The position numbers were made by a program, and so were the translations under genes. From a virus, in IMG/VR virus record IMGVR_UViG_3300048930_000158, positions 1-24,144 of that record: a stretch of 24,144 nucleotides of DNA. One strand, written 5' to 3'. A model generated the notes under the pieces. That model was not told the DNA's origin, did not search any database, and saw only the letters and a list, made by a program, of their open reading frames with translations. Shown piece after piece: positions 2,305 to 24,144 of this stretch; the first letter of the stretch is position 1; each line of letters opens with the position of its first letter.

Positions 2305-2568
2305 ATGGACGAATTGAAGGTAGACGGCGGCATCGTTGCGGTAGTTCTGGCCGCACTTGGAACGGGGTGGGCCATGATTCGCATGTTTTTCAACCTCGTG
2401 AAGCGGGTGGAGAACAACGAAACGGACATCCGAGCGCTGAAGCTCGCACACGATGAAAAGCTGGACCAGATGCGAACTGACATCCAGACATTGGCTGACC
2501 GCACCGACAAACGGCACGACTCGATAGAGCACAAGATTGACAGGCTGATTGAGCGGGGAATGAGATGA
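2305..2568 (+). CDS. Lysis-cassette TM/coiled-coil protein (XhlA-like or spanin-like)
   Basis: The start at ATG 2305 is chosen because the upstream in-frame ATG (2260) sits in a terminator loop and its extra residues translate the T run. The 87-aa product has one N-terminal transmembrane segment (about residues 9-30, GGIVAVVLAALGTGWAMIRMFF) followed by a charged heptad-rich coiled coil to the C-terminus. This layout fits XhlA/DUF2730-like small phage lysis accessories and also an inner-membrane spanin (Rz-like); I cannot decide between them from sequence. No lipoprotein partner of the Rz1 type is visible nearby. The stop overlaps the holin start (ATGA at 2565-2568). Confidence 0.75.
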   Translation: MDELKVDGGIVAVVLAALGTGWAMIRMFFNLVKRVENNETDIRALKLAHDEKLDQMRTDIQTLADRTDKRHDSIEHKIDRLIERGMR

Positions 2569-2975
2569 CCATCGTTTCCGACATCGTAAGCGGACTGGCC
2601 AAGCCCGTAACCGATCTGATCAGCGAATTCATCACCGACAAAGACAAAGCGGCACAGTTAGCGTTTGATATTTCCACACTGGCAGCGACTCAGGCGCACG
2701 CCCAGGTTTTGGCCCAATTGGCCGTAAATCAGGCTGAGGCGTCTAGCGGCTCCATGTTCGTCGGTGGCTGGCGTCCGGCTGTTGGCTGGGTGTGTGTACT
2801 GGCTATGGCGCTGAATTTCATCCTGACGCCAATGCTTGGCCCTGTGGTCGAGGCTTACACGCCGATAGTCATGGCCCCGCTTGAGATGGGCGAGATGATG
2901 CCGATTCTGCTTGGCATGTTGGGCCTGACCGCCGCCCGCACTTACGAAAAGCGGCAAGGAGTGGCAAAGCCGTGA
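2565..2975 (+). CDS. Holin, 3-TM (GTA_holin_3TM family)
   Basis: The 136-aa product has an amphipathic N-terminal region (residues 1-60, TDLISEFITDKDKAAQLAFDI...), then the signature FVGGWRPAVGWVC at about residues 65-77. Hydrophobic segments follow around 69-90, 92-105 and 108-122. This is characteristic of the 3-TM holin family found in phages and gene-transfer agents. Such holins form membrane holes that release the endolysin to the periplasm at a set time. It lies between the TM/coiled-coil protein and the endolysin and overlaps both neighbouring starts (ATGA before, GTGA after), as expected for a tightly coupled lysis cassette. Confidence 0.85.
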   Translation: MTIVSDIVSGLAKPVTDLISEFITDKDKAAQLAFDISTLAATQAHAQVLAQLAVNQAEASSGSMFVGGWRPAVGWVCVLAMALNFILTPMLGPVVEAYTPIVMAPLEMGEMMPILLGMLGLTAARTYEKRQGVAKP

Positions 2976-3064
2976 AAACCGCCGCCTTCGTTGTATTAGT
3001 GTCCGTCTCCGTGATTGTGATCGCAGTTGTGTGGGCATTTTCGGCATTGGTGGCGCAGATATGA
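2972..3064 (+). CDS. 30-aa single-TM lysis-cassette peptide
   Basis: This short frame starts with GTG at 2972 (overlapping the holin stop as GTGA) and ends TGA at 3062-3064, overlapping the endolysin ATG as ATGA. AAGGAG lies about 10 bases upstream of the GTG. The peptide (MKTAAFVVLVSVSVIVIAVV... to QI) is one hydrophobic segment with a lysine at position 2. There is no cysteine, so it is not an Rz1-type lipoprotein. Stop/start overlaps on both sides and the ribosome site argue that it is translated. It may be a second holin, an antiholin, or simply a coupling ORF; the function is unknown. Confidence 0.55.
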   Translation: MKTAAFVVLVSVSVIVIAVVWAFSALVAQI

Positions 3065-3582
3065 CTGACGTGCAAGAAATGATCGCCCGAATTATTGGGC
3101 GAGAGGGTGGCTATGTTAACCACCCAAGCGACCATGGCGGACCAACGAATATGGGCGTTACTCTTGACGCGCTTTCCGAGTACAGGGGTGTTGGCGTCAC
3201 TGCTGCCGATATCAAGAACCTGACGCGAGAGGAAGCAGAGGCAATTTTTTATGAGCGGTATTGGGTCGATCCCGGATTCGATCAGCTAAACGTATCGTCA
3301 ACCGTGGCAGAAATGCTACTGGATATGAGCGTACACCACGGCGCTTTTGGCGCTGCGAAACTACTACAGAAGGCGGTCAATGTCATTCCTGATGGGCAGA
3401 TTGGCGCAATAACGGAAAAGGCCGTCAATGGCACGCGAGGCCCAATATTGGCCGCAGCGGTCATGGGTGAACGTATAGCGAAATTGGGATCAATCATCAC
3501 CAAAAACCCTAGCCAAGCGGTGTTTGCTGCGGGCTGGATGAATCGCATGAAAGAGCTGGTCAATCGGATTCCAAATGCCTGA
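3061..3582 (+). CDS. Endolysin, glycoside hydrolase 108 (N-acetylmuramidase) with C-terminal PG_binding_3
   Basis: The 173-aa product matches GH108 lysozymes: an N-terminal helix, then REGGYVNHPSDHGGPTNMGVT (catalytic Glu15), the YWVDPGFDQL and VAEMLLDMSVHHG segments, and a C-terminal domain of the PG_binding_3 type (about residues 95-170). It cleaves the peptidoglycan glycan strand during host lysis. There is no signal peptide, so export depends on the holin. I chose ATG 3061 because the frame from 3031 would add ten residues that overlap the TM peptide, whereas 3061 overlaps its stop (ATGA) and places the Glu at the usual distance from the N-terminus. The stop overlaps the tail-fibre start by 8 bases. 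Confidence 0.92.
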   Translation: MTDVQEMIARIIGREGGYVNHPSDHGGPTNMGVTLDALSEYRGVGVTAADIKNLTREEAEAIFYERYWVDPGFDQLNVSSTVAEMLLDMSVHHGAFGAAKLLQKAVNVIPDGQIGAITEKAVNGTRGPILAAAVMGERIAKLGSIITKNPSQAVFAAGWMNRMKELVNRIPNA

Positions 3583-4879
3583 TTTCGTACTAAACTGCGC
3601 CGGCACGTCGCGCACGACCGGCACTGCAGGATATGTTATATCGGGCACGACCGGCAAAAGCCGGTCCATGGTTTCGGCTTTGACCAATGGGCAACAGGTC
3701 GCATATCACATCGAGTACAAGTCCAGCAAGGCCGGATTTGAGGATGGCATAGGCACCTGGAACAGCAGCACCTCCACCCTAGCTCGGACGGCTATCAGCG
3801 CATCCAGTAACGCTGACGCAGCAGTGTCTTGGGGCGTAGGTGAAAAGGTTCTCTATTGCACCGTCAACCCCGACATGCTCACCAATGCCAATTACCTGGC
3901 TACAGGCACCGTACCTGCAGCCCGTGTACCGGCAGGCACCACTGCCGATACTTTTGCGGTTGGCAATGATCCGCGTTTCGACACCATAGACCCCGTCGAC
4001 ATGGACCCAGCCGAGACTCTGGATGGAACCGAGATAATCCCCATCGTGCAGGACGGTGACGGGGCACAGACAACCGTGCAGGGAATTGCCGGAAACCCAC
4101 TTACTGCGCAGCTTGGCCACGCCAGAAACACCAATAAGTCATTTAGCAACTTCACTAAGTTGTCAAAAAGTTTTATTGCTGCCGCCGGGTCTTCTGGTGT
4201 TGCTGCTGGTCTTGAGCCGTTCCTGTGTTATGCGAGCGGAACCGGGGCTGGCTTAGCAAACTTACAACTTTTCACGCAAACACCGGCGATGACGCTAGAT
4301 ACAGGGACGACAACAACAGGGCGCGTCTGCCTAGAGCACCTTGAGTACCCGATACTGTATGACCCTGTACAGTTTGATAGGGATTATCGAAAAACGGTGT
4401 CTATGGGGGGTAATCTGCCCGTCAGCGGTAATGATTTTATAATTCAGTGCGGTTTTTTGGACAGCGCGCCCGAAATAGCGACTCTCGGTACTGGACTAGG
4501 CGTATTTTTTGAGCTGAAAACGGGTGATACAAATTGGCAAGCATGCTGGATAAGCCGCACATCAGGGGAGTCGAATTATCGTCGAGTGGATACCGGCGTA
4601 TTAGCTAGCACCTCGACCACTTACACATTCAGAGTGCATTTAAGGTCGTCACAAACTGTCAGTGCCGATAGAAAAGCTGATTTTTATATTAACAACGAAC
4701 TGGTAGCCAGCATTTTACATAATGACACCGGCGTTACAGTCATGCCAACTAACACAAGGCTGAGCATGGCAGAGGTGGTGAAAAAATCCTCGGGGTCTAC
4801 CGGAGGGGCCATCACAGTTGTCGCGCATTATAGTGAAATCGAAGCCTTATACCCGTCCAGAGAAGGTATGTCGCCGTGA
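3575..4879 (+). CDS. Tail fibre-like receptor-binding protein
   Basis: This 434-aa protein has three parts. Residues 20-95 carry the recurring phage-fibre module of the type YHIEY...GIGTWNSSTSTLARTAISASSN..LYCTV. Residues 96-235 form a Thr/Ser/Gly-rich linker with a TGTVPAARVPAGTTADTFAVGNDPR repeat-like segment seen in phage fibres. Residues 235-434 look like a beta-sandwich (lectin or concanavalin-like) domain: FIIQCGFLDSAPE, VFFELKTGD, TYTFRVHLRSS and KADFYINNELVAS. It most likely binds host surface glycans. It sits between the endolysin and the glycoside hydrolase and overlaps both (ATGA at 4876-4879). The 3' half is clearly less GC-rich than the head and tail genes, suggesting exchange. 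The exact fold of the C-terminal part is an inference. Confidence 0.8.
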   Translation: MPDFVLNCAGTSRTTGTAGYVISGTTGKSRSMVSALTNGQQVAYHIEYKSSKAGFEDGIGTWNSSTSTLARTAISASSNADAAVSWGVGEKVLYCTVNPDMLTNANYLATGTVPAARVPAGTTADTFAVGNDPRFDTIDPVDMDPAETLDGTEIIPIVQDGDGAQTTVQGIAGNPLTAQLGHARNTNKSFSNFTKLSKSFIAAAGSSGVAAGLEPFLCYASGTGAGLANLQLFTQTPAMTLDTGTTTTGRVCLEHLEYPILYDPVQFDRDYRKTVSMGGNLPVSGNDFIIQCGFLDSAPEIATLGTGLGVFFELKTGDTNWQACWISRTSGESNYRRVDTGVLASTSTTYTFRVHLRSSQTVSADRKADFYINNELVASILHNDTGVTVMPTNTRLSMAEVVKKSSGSTGGAITVVAHYSEIEALYPSREGMSP

Positions 4880-6021
4880 AAATCGCTATAAACGGCGTGC
4901 CAATAACCTTTGGCGGCTTAAAAATATCTTTTCCATCGCCAAGAATCACAGTCGCCGGGGAAGAGTTAAGTCGGCTCGGCTCGCGCTTTAAATCGTGGGG
5001 CTATCAGCATCTTAATTACGAGTACATGGCCGACTATTTCTTGCTGGGTGGCGCACCGGAGCGGGCGCAGGTTGCACAAGATATTTACGGCAATCGGCGG
5101 ATGGGGGCCAATTCCATCCGGCTGCATATGGACTTGTGGTGGTTTATCGATGGGCCGGATAAAGACAACCTGGAAATGGTGCAAACACCGCTCGACAACC
5201 TGATTTTCTTTTTGGACGTTTGCAGGCGCAACGGAATCTATGTGCTGCTCGCGGGCAATAACACATGGGACCCGACAGTGATCCCGAGTTGGTTTGATGA
5301 TCTCACCTACACCGAGCGGTGGGACGTAAGCCAATTCTACTGGGAGGGGATTGCGACCGCAGTTGTCGCTGCCGGGCATTCGACCACTGTGCTTGGATAT
5401 GAGCTCGCTAACGAACCCAGCATGAGCACAGACCCTGATTGGGAATGGTATGGCGATGATGTTTTCGGAGTTGGGATATTCTACCGTCACCTGATCGCCC
5501 GAGGCGCTGAAGTTAACGGGACTACAGTCAGGAACTGGATCACGCAACTGCGTGACGCAATTAAAGCCATCGACACAAAGGCGCTTGTCACATTTGGCGC
5601 GCTCCCGTATTGGGATGATGAGGACTTTCCGGTAACTATCACGGCCTTCGCGTATGAAAACACCGAAGACTTGCTGGATTTCATGTCACCTCACTGTTAC
5701 CCGCCCTTTGTGTTTTTCGGCCAAACACAGGAAGAAATGATGGGGTATCTCATCGGGTGGACAGCATCGACCAAGCCGCTGGTTATCGGAGAAACATCAC
5801 TTTGGTCTACCACAGAAAATAACGCCGAATACATGGACTATGTGGTTGATTATTACGACGGTGTAATTAATTTCTCCTATGGGTATACGCCCGGAGAGTT
5901 TACAGTCCCGCCTGATTTGCCAAAGTTCCCGTGCGACCCAGCCACGCCCGACAACATCTATCAGGCGCAGCGTGGGCAATTGGAGCAGTTCAATAGCTAC
6001 CGTGAAGCGTTTCTAGTATGA
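4876..6021 (+). CDS. Glycoside hydrolase, clan GH-A (GH5/cellulase-like), virion-associated depolymerase candidate
   Basis: The 381-aa protein reads as a (beta/alpha)8 retaining glycosidase of clan GH-A. After an N-terminal cap (MKIAINGVPITFGGLKI) come ANSIRLHMDLWWF (about residues 78-90, beta-2/3), DVCRRNGIYVLLAGNNTW, and GYELANEPS with Asn179-Glu180 as the acid/base. SPHCYPP follows with His273 and Tyr275, then KPLVIGETS with Glu306 as nucleophile. The 126-residue gap between the two glutamates is typical of GH5-like enzymes. There is no signal peptide, cellulose-binding module or membrane segment. Coupled to a fibre gene (ATGA overlap), it probably digests host capsule or exopolysaccharide during adsorption or release; substrate is unknown. 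A lysogeny-conferred metabolic role is an alternative. Base composition is lower in GC than the structural genes. Confidence 0.85.
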   Translation: MKIAINGVPITFGGLKISFPSPRITVAGEELSRLGSRFKSWGYQHLNYEYMADYFLLGGAPERAQVAQDIYGNRRMGANSIRLHMDLWWFIDGPDKDNLEMVQTPLDNLIFFLDVCRRNGIYVLLAGNNTWDPTVIPSWFDDLTYTERWDVSQFYWEGIATAVVAAGHSTTVLGYELANEPSMSTDPDWEWYGDDVFGVGIFYRHLIARGAEVNGTTVRNWITQLRDAIKAIDTKALVTFGALPYWDDEDFPVTITAFAYENTEDLLDFMSPHCYPPFVFFGQTQEEMMGYLIGWTASTKPLVIGETSLWSTTENNAEYMDYVVDYYDGVINFSYGYTPGEFTVPPDLPKFPCDPATPDNIYQAQRGQLEQFNSYREAFLV

Positions 6022-20058: not shown

Positions 20059-20576
20059 CCGTCGGAATAACCACAGGCCAGTTCAACAATACTGGCGAGA
20101 CTTCAACGCGCCCCATTCGCGTCCTGCGACTGGAGCACTCCGGCTCACTGGAGTTGATCAGCGAAAACGGGGACATTGAATTCAACGGCGAGCTGTTCTC
20201 GGCCGGGGGCATCATGGCCATGAGCGTGGAGGATGGCCGACGCGCTACCCTCACGCTATCCGGCAGCACCACCCGAATCGCGGAGTCCGTGGCCGGCCGC
20301 TGGCGCAACGGTAAAATCTGCCAAATCTACGCCGTTCCCGGCCTGCCCACTGACACCGGTGTCTACGACCTCGCGGATGGTGTCCTGCTGCTGGACGGCA
20401 TTATCGATGCCTCTGGGTATTCCGGCGGCGTGGTGACTGTCCGCGTGGTGCATAAAAGCCTGAACGGCAGACTTACCCCGCGCCAGACCTTCAACCTGTA
20501 TTCCGAATACATCCCTCCGCCCAACTCAATTGTCGAGTGGGAGGGAGAGTCCTACATGCTCAGGTCCAGACGATGA
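20055..20576 (+). CDS. Minor tail / tail-tip protein (gpL or DUF2163-like position)
   Basis: The 173-aa product contains IRVLRLEHSGSLELISENGDIEFNGELFSAGGIMAMSVEDGRRATLTLSGST, then AESVAGRWRNGKICQIYAVPGLPTDTGVYDLADGVLLLDGIIDASGYSGGVVTVRVVHKS. This is a beta-rich tail-tip protein with the look of those linking the distal tail to the hub. It is clearly a tail gene by position between the M-like protein and the hub. Lambda K and I homologues (NlpC/P60 peptidase and its partner) are not seen, so this phage has a shorter tail-tip set. Both ends overlap neighbours as ATGA. Confidence 0.75.
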   Translation: MTVGITTGQFNNTGETSTRPIRVLRLEHSGSLELISENGDIEFNGELFSAGGIMAMSVEDGRRATLTLSGSTTRIAESVAGRWRNGKICQIYAVPGLPTDTGVYDLADGVLLLDGIIDASGYSGGVVTVRVVHKSLNGRLTPRQTFNLYSEYIPPPNSIVEWEGESYMLRSRR

Positions 20577-23500
20577 CAGCAACCGGCAGCCTGCGCGGAG
20601 TATTGACAGCCCGCGAGATCAACTCTTTCCGCTCGGACGGGCTCGACACCAACGGCATTGAATCCACTGCTGCAGGAGCTCCGGTCCCGCCCGCGTTCGG
20701 CAACGTCACAATCCCTGGCCTGATCTCGCTTTCCGGTGTTGACGGTTCCGGCGATGGTATTTTCCGCGTGTTCTGGTGTGCCGGTGAGATTTACCAGATC
20801 GACGATGTATACATCAACGGCGAGGCTCTCCCGTCCAGTGTGGAGGTCAGGCACTACCGGGGCGCTATCCATCAGGGCGTCGATGATCTCGTGGAGTCCA
20901 TCACCACCCTCACCGGATATGCGGAAACGATGGTGCAGGACTATCCGGCGGGGCTATGCGCTGTTGCTTACTCGGTGTTCAGGATTCCTGCCGGCGCTAT
21001 CTCAGGCGCGCCCAGATTCCAAGCTGTCGGACGCTGGGCCGTGGTCTATGACGTGCGCAAGAGCCTGGTCTCGGATTACATCTTTGACGATGTGGTTGGA
21101 TACAACCTCGATTTCACGCAGGCGGCTGACGGCACTGGCACCACGGGCGTGGATCTTTCCTACAACGCGCACACGGTAACCTGGTCGGGCAATGCCCAGG
21201 TATCTGGCGGGGAAGCGACATTCGACGGCAACGGCGACTATCTCACCCTGCAGGACACCACTGCTGCCGATTTTGGCACTGGCAAGTGGACGCTGGAGGT
21301 CTCGATTGCGACGTCCGACACCACCGGCACGCAGCACATATTCAGCAAGGGCGACGGGGCGAGCGACAGGGCTATCATCCTGTCACTTATCACTGATGAT
21401 CTGTACGTCTCGATGTCGAGCACCGGCACCACGTGGGATATCGCCTCTGTTGTCCTCCTGAAAACCGCCGTATCACCGACGGGTGCAGCCCGCATCACGG
21501 TTGAATACACTGAGCGCGAATACCATTTTTACGTTGACGGATTCCACGTCCACGTTATCCAAAACGCTGACCCTCTCTTTGCCACCACGCGCCCGGTCCG
21601 GCTCGGACTGTACGACGGCGGCACCGCGACTGATGGATTCAACGGCACCATGTACGGCTGCCGCATGACCAAAGGAGTCTGCAGGTACGGCGGCGTGCAC
21701 GGCTCGATTGTGGCCGGGACTCCGCTGCCGTATCAGGACGTGGACAACCTGCGGCCTGGATATGTTTACAGCAATGTGCCCTCTCTCGCGCTGGGTGAGC
21801 TGGCCCGCAATCCGTTTTATGGCCTTGGCGTGACCAATGTCTACAACGAACTGGAGGCGATGGAATTTAACGAGGAATTGCTGCCATCCGGCGAGCCGCG
21901 TGCGGAGATGAACCTGGTGTTATCGCAGGTTCGATCTACAGAGTCATGGATGGACCTGATCGCCACCTACGCGGAGTGCTTCTGGTTTTTCCTGGACGAC
22001 GGCATCTACATCAAGCCCGATAGACGCATCACCGCGAAGCGCCCGGCAGGGTGGGAGATGGGCGAGGACGGAGAATTCCTGGGTGACGGGTCGACATGGA
22101 CGGCGGGCAGCGGCTGGACGTTTTTCGGTGGCGACCTGAACCTGTTTTCCAAAACAGCGGGGGTGGCCTCCTCGATCTCCCAGGCCATGGTCAAGGAGTT
22201 TGAATCGGGCGTCACCTACTGCGCAGTTATGGATGTGGGCCTGCGCTCTGCCGGCACTGTGGCGCTGACATTCCAAGGCATCACCGTGATAGCCGCTGTA
22301 AGCGCTGCAGGCCGCTACGCCTACGAATGGGTGGCCACAGGCGGGGAAGACGGCCAGACGATCTCCTGCGATGCGGACAGCGCGTTTGTCGGGCTGATCG
22401 GCGAGGTATCCATCCGGCGCAAATACTGGCCAGAAACCAGCATCGTGCAGGGATCGCTCGCGCTGTCCGGGGCCCCCAACTCCGACAGCCCGACATCGGT
22501 CACACTGCAGTACACTGCGCCGGTTGCAGATTCGCCCAATTGGGGCAGTGCCATGCCGGTGATCGCCACGATGCCGGGGGTGGACACGTCGCTGGTTCCG
22601 TTGCTGGACACCAGCATTGATTTCCCGGGCATCACGCGCATCGAGGAAGCCGAGAACAAGGCATTGTCCCGGCTGCTGAGAATGCAGAACGCCGTCTATG
22701 CTTCGTGGGTGTCTGCCGATCGTGCGATTGCATTGCGGCGCGGCTTTGTCGTGAACCTGATCGACCCCGAGACCGCCACGGACATGCTCGTGCGGGTAGA
22801 TTCTGTCACCGCCACCACTGATAACGGGCGCTACCGCGTATCCGGCCAGCGGTACGATGACGAGCACTACCCCTCAGAGACCGACCTACCGGCAGTCGCC
22901 ATTCCGGTGAACGCGATCACGATCAGCCGGGACGGCGTGGTTCCATCGGGTTGGGCGGCGTACACAGCGGCGGATGGCAAGTACATCAAGTGCGCCGGCA
23001 CCGGCGTCACCGCCGAATCTACCGGGGGTGCAGCGACCCTGGCCGCAATCACCGGCAATGTGGAACTGGCCGGGGAGCATGGGGATACTGCCGCGCCTGA
23101 AATGCTGCCGGTTTACATCGACGGCTTTGTCTCAACTGGCGGCAGCGGGTCAGGCGATCTATACACCGCTACAGAGGAGGACGCAGGCGGCCACCAGCAC
23201 ACCTACGACACCGGCACAATCACTCCCGAGCTGTACACGATTGAATCCGTTCTGGTCCAGAAAATAACCTCCACGGCAACGACGATGCCGGGCAACCTGC
23301 TGGTGTTCGGCAAGGCTGGGCTCAAGTTTAGGAATATGACGCGGTGGTTGTACGCGGCCCAGCGACTGCTCAAGGCGGCAGCAACGGCGGCAGCGACAGG
23401 GATGAAAGATCAGGCTATCACGCTGACCAGCGGCAGCACAGATGATACCCACGAGCACTACACCCGTTCGGCCACGTCCAGCGGCACGCCGTCATCACCG

Positions 23501-24144
23501 TCTGCGCAATCGAATATTTACAATTACACCAACGGCGGAGGTGCACACACCCATCTATCCACCATCGGGCTGATCAGGTCGCCGAAAAAATACCGGCTCT
23601 CGCTCTACGGCGGAACAGACGATTACGGAATCAGCGAGGGCTGCATGCTCATGTGGCCCAACCTTTCCCTGCCAACAGGTTGGACGCTGTGCAACGGATT
23701 ATTAGGCACACCCAACCTTGCCGACTATTTCATCGAGATTGCTGCGGAGGGCGAGGAGGATACTTACGAGGGCGACAACACTGTTGGAATTTTCGGCTAC
23801 ACGAATTACTCGGCGAACCACAGCCACCAGGGCACCAGCGATGCCAGTGTGTATAACATCCTCGGCGTCTCACACTCGAATAACTACCGCCATCGCCACC
23901 TGATCTACGCCACTGGCTATGACTGGGAGCCCGAGTACTACGCCCTGAGCATGATCATGTACAACCCGGCACCCGTGCCCGGCTATCCTGATGCCCTCCT
24001 GCTGATCTCTGGCGGCGAGGCAGACGGCACTACCACGCTGGTGGATGACTCCACGCACGCGCGCACCGCGACGGTCACCGGTGGCACCGGGTCGCTGCAG
24101 TACGATGATGCGCAGTTGCTGTTTGGGCGTACCACCGTCAATAC
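20573..24144 (+). CDS. Central tail hub/host-recognition protein with LamG, jelly-roll and collar modules, 3'-partial
   Basis: Open from ATG 20573 (ATGA overlap) to the window end, 1,190 codons without a stop, so the C-terminus is missing. Residues 1-176 and about 372-490 look like a tail hub. Residues 177-370 form a LamG/concanavalin-like insertion (FDGNGDYLTLQDTT, FGTGKWTLEVSIATS, YHFYVDGFHVHV, LGLYDGG). Residues 490-618 form a jelly-roll (WTAGSGWTFFGGDLNLFSK, TVALTFQGITV). Residues 640-770 resemble hub domains of gpJ-type tail proteins (NKALSRLLRMQNAVYASWV). From about 870 there are HxH pairs at 874/876, 960/962, 992/994, 1083/1085 and 1107/1109. Around 1023-1060 is a tail-collar motif (GCMLMWPNLSLPTGWTLCNG). 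It probably binds the host receptor. The assignment as a gpJ counterpart is by position and modules. Confidence 0.8.
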   Translation, partial: MTATGSLRGVLTAREINSFRSDGLDTNGIESTAAGAPVPPAFGNVTIPGLISLSGVDGSGDGIFRVFWCAGEIYQIDDVYINGEALPSSVEVRHYRGAIHQGVDDLVESITTLTGYAETMVQDYPAGLCAVAYSVFRIPAGAISGAPRFQAVGRWAVVYDVRKSLVSDYIFDDVVGYNLDFTQAADGTGTTGVDLSYNAHTVTWSGNAQVSGGEATFDGNGDYLTLQDTTAADFGTGKWTLEVSIATSDTTGTQHIFSKGDGASDRAIILSLITDDLYVSMSSTGTTWDIASVVLLKTAVSPTGAARITVEYTEREYHFYVDGFHVHVIQNADPLFATTRPVRLGLYDGGTATDGFNGTMYGCRMTKGVCRYGGVHGSIVAGTPLPYQDVDNLRPGYVYSNVPSLALGELARNPFYGLGVTNVYNELEAMEFNEELLPSGEPRAEMNLVLSQVRSTESWMDLIATYAECFWFFLDDGIYIKPDRRITAKRPAGWEMGEDGEFLGDGSTWTAGSGWTFFGGDLNLFSKTAGVASSISQAMVKEFESGVTYCAVMDVGLRSAGTVALTFQGITVIAAVSAAGRYAYEWVATGGEDGQTISCDADSAFVGLIGEVSIRRKYWPETSIVQGSLALSGAPNSDSPTSVTLQYTAPVADSPNWGSAMPVIATMPGVDTSLVPLLDTSIDFPGITRIEEAENKALSRLLRMQNAVYASWVSADRAIALRRGFVVNLIDPETATDMLVRVDSVTATTDNGRYRVSGQRYDDEHYPSETDLPAVAIPVNAITISRDGVVPSGWAAYTAADGKYIKCAGTGVTAESTGGAATLAAITGNVELAGEHGDTAAPEMLPVYIDGFVSTGGSGSGDLYTATEEDAGGHQHTYDTGTITPELYTIESVLVQKITSTATTMPGNLLVFGKAGLKFRNMTRWLYAAQRLLKAAATAAATGMKDQAITLTSGSTDDTHEHYTRSATSSGTPSSPSAQSNIYNYTNGGGAHTHLSTIGLIRSPKKYRLSLYGGTDDYGISEGCMLMWPNLSLPTGWTLCNGLLGTPNLADYFIEIAAEGEEDTYEGDNTVGIFGYTNYSANHSHQGTSDASVYNILGVSHSNNYRHRHLIYATGYDWEPEYYALSMIMYNPAPVPGYPDALLLISGGEADGTTTLVDDSTHARTATVTGGTGSLQYDDAQLLFGRTTVN

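Follow-up and report, generated by a model that had tools for sequence, protein, structure and literature searches.

The window, i.e., the whole stretch of DNA analysed here, is a 24.1-kb virus record (IMG/VR record IMGVR_UViG_3300048930_000158, positions 1 to 24,144) whose + strand carries a lambda-like late region. The late genes run from a Q-like antiterminator through holin, endolysin, tail fibre, a GH5 glycoside hydrolase and two small genes to a Nu1-type small terminase, a gpA-type large terminase, portal, a fused protease/capsid protein, tail genes and tip. The features around the hydrolase gene are:

2565..2975, + strand: holin (GTA_holin_3TM), by family match
3031..3582, + strand: endolysin (Glyco_hydro_108 and PG_binding_3), by family matches, directly upstream of the fibre and GH5 genes
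3575..4879, + strand: tail fibre, 434 aa, with an N-terminal tail-fibre resemblance and a C-terminal region in common with the fibre of another phage (L085/L086)
3926..6021, + strand: putative exchangeable two-gene module (fibre C-terminal region and GH5), from the comparison with L085/L086
4876..4879, + strand: 4-nt translational overlap, GTGA, of fibre stop and GH5 start, read from the sequence
4876..6021, + strand: GH5 glycoside hydrolase, 381 aa, GTG start, from the ORF, a Pfam match, the model and conserved residues
6089..6547, + strand: 152-aa protein of unassigned function, adjoining the GH5 gene downstream

Elsewhere in the window, two small ORFs (about 85 and 70–90 aa) lie on the − strand at 1485–2048, flanked by the Q-like gene and the holin, and one of them has, by eye, a good ribosome-binding site ahead of its start. 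The 152-aa protein had no match of any kind in the family profile search; on the contig of L003 (L095), downstream of the tip gene, lies a gene for a small Ig-like baseplate-type protein that looks similar to it by eye. The tip protein (20537–24142) had no family match except one weak match; by eye, a LamG-like (concanavalin-type) segment is apparent at about residues 185–390, and His-rich collar-like motifs stand close to its end. No Rfam match was found anywhere in the window.

The ORF at 4876–6021 is real, and an AGAAGG Shine-Dalgarno-like sequence stands just 5′ of its GTG start. The first-pass annotation described this gene as fused into the fibre region and coupled to the fibre gene by ATGA. 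The overlap instead reads GTGA, and the hydrolase adjoins the fibre as a separate ORF, which rules out a gene fusion. The same annotation placed an NEP motif at Asn179-Glu180, His273 and Tyr275, and Glu306 in an IGE context, and all of these residues (N179-E180-P181, H273, Y275, E306) are found at those positions, together with an N-N-x-W-type motif after strand 3. By analogy to characterised GH5 enzymes, Glu180 is the predicted acid/base and Glu306 the predicted nucleophile. Pfam Cellulase (PF00150) matches residues 73–336 with 52.3 bits (E 7e-14) against a curated cut-off of 23.5 bits, well above what chance would give, and all five homologues match it as well. By eye, the protein has no N-terminal signal peptide, and no virion anchor was recognisable in it.

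A single-sequence AlphaFold2 model of the protein (pLDDT 30) was discarded. The model used here was built on a five-sequence alignment of the window protein and its homologues in L085 and L090–L092, and has a pTM of 0.69 and a mean pLDDT of 56, with 70–90 in the core and low confidence outside it (residues 1–43, 180–212, and 331–381). In Foldseek searches with this model mannanases rank first, the top match being tomato endo-beta-mannanase (1rh9; E 2e-7), while VIA-align returns GH5 mannanases, mannosidases and GH5_18 with nearly tied Z values of 20.5–18 over 280–300 residues (rmsd 3.4–4.0). Structure prediction and fold search, which had been proposed as the check for a TIM barrel, thus found one, and a (beta/alpha)8 TIM barrel is supported as the predicted fold. 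In clan GH-A, the catalytic Glu pair sits at strands 4 and 7. In the model, N179-E180 come after a predicted strand at 172–176 and E306 lies within a strand near 302–307, so that the two glutamates coincide with predicted strands 4 and 7 or come directly after them. Taken together, the family score, the fold and the conserved catalytic residues support the earlier assignment of the product of 4876–6021 to GH5 (clan GH-A). Mannanases lead its PDB matches, with GH5_18, glucanases and mannosidases scoring nearly equally, so that subfamily 7 (endo-beta-mannanase) is a candidate assignment.

With the GH5 protein alone as query, no relative appeared in phages, plasmids, viral contigs or genome contigs, and the PDB gave a single weak match (1rh9, E 0.015). 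Phage relatives surfaced only once GH5 fragments from PDB alignments had joined the query. Profile matches obtained with a query that contained 1rh9 are circular and were dropped as evidence for mannanase specificity, while in the PDB a profile of the phage GH5 sequences alone retrieves both mannanases and glucanases of GH5. The closest homologue, in L085/L086, has 36–38% identity to the window protein (38% at E 3e-63; 36% across residues 16–380 at E 2e-61), and lacks the extra N-terminal stretch of about 15 aa that the window protein has. The homologues in L090–L092 are at 25% identity (E about 1e-19). No bacterial relative was found in genome contigs, and a search of 47 phages with a related terminase or capsid, many of them fragments, gave no GH5; the contigs of the closest relatives (L002–L009) end near the terminase, short of the position at which the fibre and GH5 genes lie in the window.

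R82, N179, E180, H273, Y275 and E306 are invariant between the window protein and four phage homologues at 25–39% identity. Since the relatives were found by patterns with N-E or H-x-Y-P motifs, the invariance of N179, E180, H273 and Y275 is partly a product of selection, whereas that of R82 and E306 is unaffected by it.

The distant homologues (L090:7851-9044, L091 and L092), on three related phage contigs of 28–49 kb, each stand alone among small non-structural ORFs, and have a hydrophobic N-terminus ending in Cys that looks lipobox-like by eye. They are a different deployment of the same GH5 enzyme family, and because they stand apart from fibre genes, the family is not always fibre-linked.

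In L085/L086, by contrast, a fibre gene precedes the GH5 homologue, with a TAA stop followed at once by ATG. The N-terminus of the window fibre (approximately residues 11–97) is like the start of other phages' tail fibres, and like that of an ORF, itself scoring against tail-fibre families, in the phage L060, which has a related capsid. This N-terminus is not homologous to that of the L086 fibre (L086:4218-6080); the homology between the two fibres is limited to the C-terminal ~320 aa (BLASTP E 1e-21, 29% identity). By eye, that C-terminal region is probably beta-rich and glycan-binding; it has no credible match in PDB or Pfam, where the two matches returned were spurious.

The phage that carries this second pair (IMGVR 3300009512_002372; 55.6 kb, in four pieces, L085 and L096–L098) is podovirus-like, with an integrase, a PHROG head protein and large virion-type proteins. 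A GTA_holin_3TM gene lies just downstream of its GH5 gene. Its fibre gene spans both contig ends, so circularity or terminal redundancy of the record is probable. When 26 window proteins were compared with this record by tblastn, the matches were confined to the fibre C-terminus and the GH5 protein, and there was no detectable homology to the window structural proteins. Since this ordered pair is the sole detectable overlap of two unrelated phages, the fibre C-terminus and GH5 appear to form an exchangeable cassette, known so far from two independent phage backgrounds, and since the enzyme travels with the C-terminal region of the fibre, it seems to be tied to the distal part of the fibre.

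Base composition is in line with such an exchange. A lower GC of the fibre/hydrolase block, which the first-pass annotation had reported and linked to acquisition by exchange, is borne out by values of 52.3% for the fibre gene and 51.6% for the GH5 gene vs. 58–62% in the terminase, portal, capsid, major tail, tape-measure and tip genes. The two genes also deviate in codon usage (fibre z −11.3, GH5 z −8.0). Acquisition of the fibre/GH5 pair by exchange is, from these sequence comparisons, strongly supported. The GH108-type endolysin at 3031–3582 is likewise deviant (low GC, codon usage z −6.9), and the exchanged stretch may include it.

We hypothesize, with somewhat better than even confidence, that the GH5 protein is a retaining beta-glycosidase and, alongside the tail fibre, the second subunit in a receptor-recognition cassette that moves by horizontal exchange. 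We infer its catalysis, attachment to the virion, substrate and role in adsorption as follows. The N-terminus of the fibre would anchor it to this phage's own tail, while the C-terminal region would move with the enzyme. Fibre and hydrolase would be co-translated from their overlapping genes, and the hydrolase subunit, which is without a long anchor or signal peptide, might dock at the fibre tip or close to it. Upon contact, it would hydrolyse a beta-linked host surface polysaccharide, perhaps a mannan/glucomannan-like or cellulose-like exopolysaccharide, and the tail could then reach the outer membrane once the polysaccharide is cleared.

Alternatively, the GH5 protein may be a soluble enzyme that is absent from the particle and freed at lysis to digest biofilm matrix or environmental polysaccharide, i.e., auxiliary metabolism or biofilm dispersal, in which case its location would give it late expression only. 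The lack of an anchor and, by eye, of a signal peptide would suit a free enzyme, as would the position of the gene close to lysis genes in both phages and the existence of homologues (L090–L092) that stand alone with their hydrophobic, Cys-ending N-termini. Active viral GH5 enzymes have moreover been read as auxiliary in two reports, on a peat endomannanase (PMC6786970) and a rumen cellulase (PMC10465536). However, a free enzyme would not need its start to overlap the fibre stop or lie right against it, as is seen in the two phages, nor would it need to be inherited with the C-terminal region of the fibre by unrelated phages that share nothing else. We therefore regard a soluble role as the less probable explanation, to which we give perhaps one chance in four. 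Because the cassette is shared with an unrelated phage, a tail-linked polysaccharide depolymerase is a better fit than a stray metabolic gene, and a capsule or exopolysaccharide depolymerase, which the first-pass annotation had offered as a possibility, is what we infer as the most likely reading.

The protein could also have kept the GH5 barrel to recognise the host polysaccharide while no longer cutting it. At the −1 subsite, where GH5 enzymes usually have a Trp on strand 8, the alignment apparently puts Phe333 in the window protein and Phe in L085, in a segment (331–381) where pLDDT is <50, and such a replacement would fit a non-hydrolytic glycan-binding protein. Against this, six core catalytic residues, including both Glu, are invariant down to 25% identity, which is unexpected for a pseudoenzyme, and we consider loss of hydrolysis improbable. 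That an assembly artefact joined a GH5 gene from a bacterial fragment to a phage contig, as might be suspected from the block's low GC and its deviating codon usage, is hardly credible, since the endolysin, fibre and GH5 ORFs overlap in one continuous series, phage genes flank both sides and the fibre-GH5 order recurs in an independent phage.

Returning to the tail-linked depolymerase, the shared pair suggests, as far as comparison of genomes can indicate, that phages trade fibre and GH5 as a kit against the sugar coat of the host. There is about an even chance, in our judgement, that this is a new depolymerase lineage in which binding by the fibre and catalysis by a free-standing GH5 protein are split over two co-translated genes, as a cassette that crosses siphovirus- and podovirus-type phages and has the fibre N-terminus swapped to suit each tail. 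When cellulase and mannanase genes are described from phages, it is usually as auxiliary metabolic genes that act on plant carbon. A GH5 gene inherited with the C-terminus of a fibre argues that some of them encode adsorption enzymes instead, and such a role would change how viral carbohydrate-active enzymes in metagenomes are read. The same finding hints at a source of depolymerases other than the beta-helix fold, and at hosts with a mannan- or cellulose-like coat.

Several known systems share parts of this arrangement. The nearest precedent in function is Erwinia phage S6 (Schitoviridae), which uses host cellulose as its first receptor; its gp095, encoded in a polymorphic region near the endolysin gene, is a GH5 cellulase that cleaves carboxymethylcellulose (PMC9544554). 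A gp095 homologue stands among the structural genes of Klebsiella phage SopranoGao, and degradation of host exopolysaccharide has been proposed by the authors of a related phage (PMC10052179). As in the window, a GH5 catalytic domain is thus encoded in the tail/lysis region of these phages. However, the S6 and SopranoGao proteins are one-piece, multi-domain proteins of 782–826 aa with N-terminal anchor-like domains, whereas in the lambda-like phage of the window enzyme and fibre are separate, overlapping genes. While the GH5 domains of S6 and SopranoGao are 47% identical to each other, the window protein matches them only at BLASTP E 1.9 (gp095) and 0.8 (SopranoGao), and the A7 profile scores −3.1 and 2.0 bits against them, respectively. 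With no homology beyond the general GH5 level, we rejected placement of the window protein in the gp095 cellulase lineage.

Two further viral GH5 enzymes, a peat endomannanase (Emerson et al., 2018; PMC6786970) and a rumen enzyme reported in 2023 (PMC10465536), were found on phage contigs and were active when expressed. Like the window gene, they lie between viral genes, but they were interpreted as auxiliary metabolic genes, and the accessible portions of both accounts describe no fibre cassette. A GH5 enzyme in this position had been called unusual, a description that holds only in part, since S6 gp095 and SopranoGao provide examples of tail-region GH5 enzymes and earlier studies have assayed viral GH5 proteins. 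What is newly recognised here is the fibre-enzyme cassette, tail-region GH5 enzymes of phages being already known.

Among characterised enzymes, the tomato endo-beta-mannanase (1rh9) and the Podospora mannanase (3ziz) share with the window protein the TIM barrel, the NEP motif, the catalytic Glu pair and the N-N-x-W-type motif, but identity to them is only about 14–17%, and the window protein differs in having no secretion signal and, apparently, Phe in place of the strand-8 Trp. Finally, beta-helix tailspike depolymerases do the same job as is proposed here, opening the host polysaccharide layer at adsorption, whereas the window enzyme is predicted to be a TIM barrel and would act as a separate subunit rather than as the spike itself.
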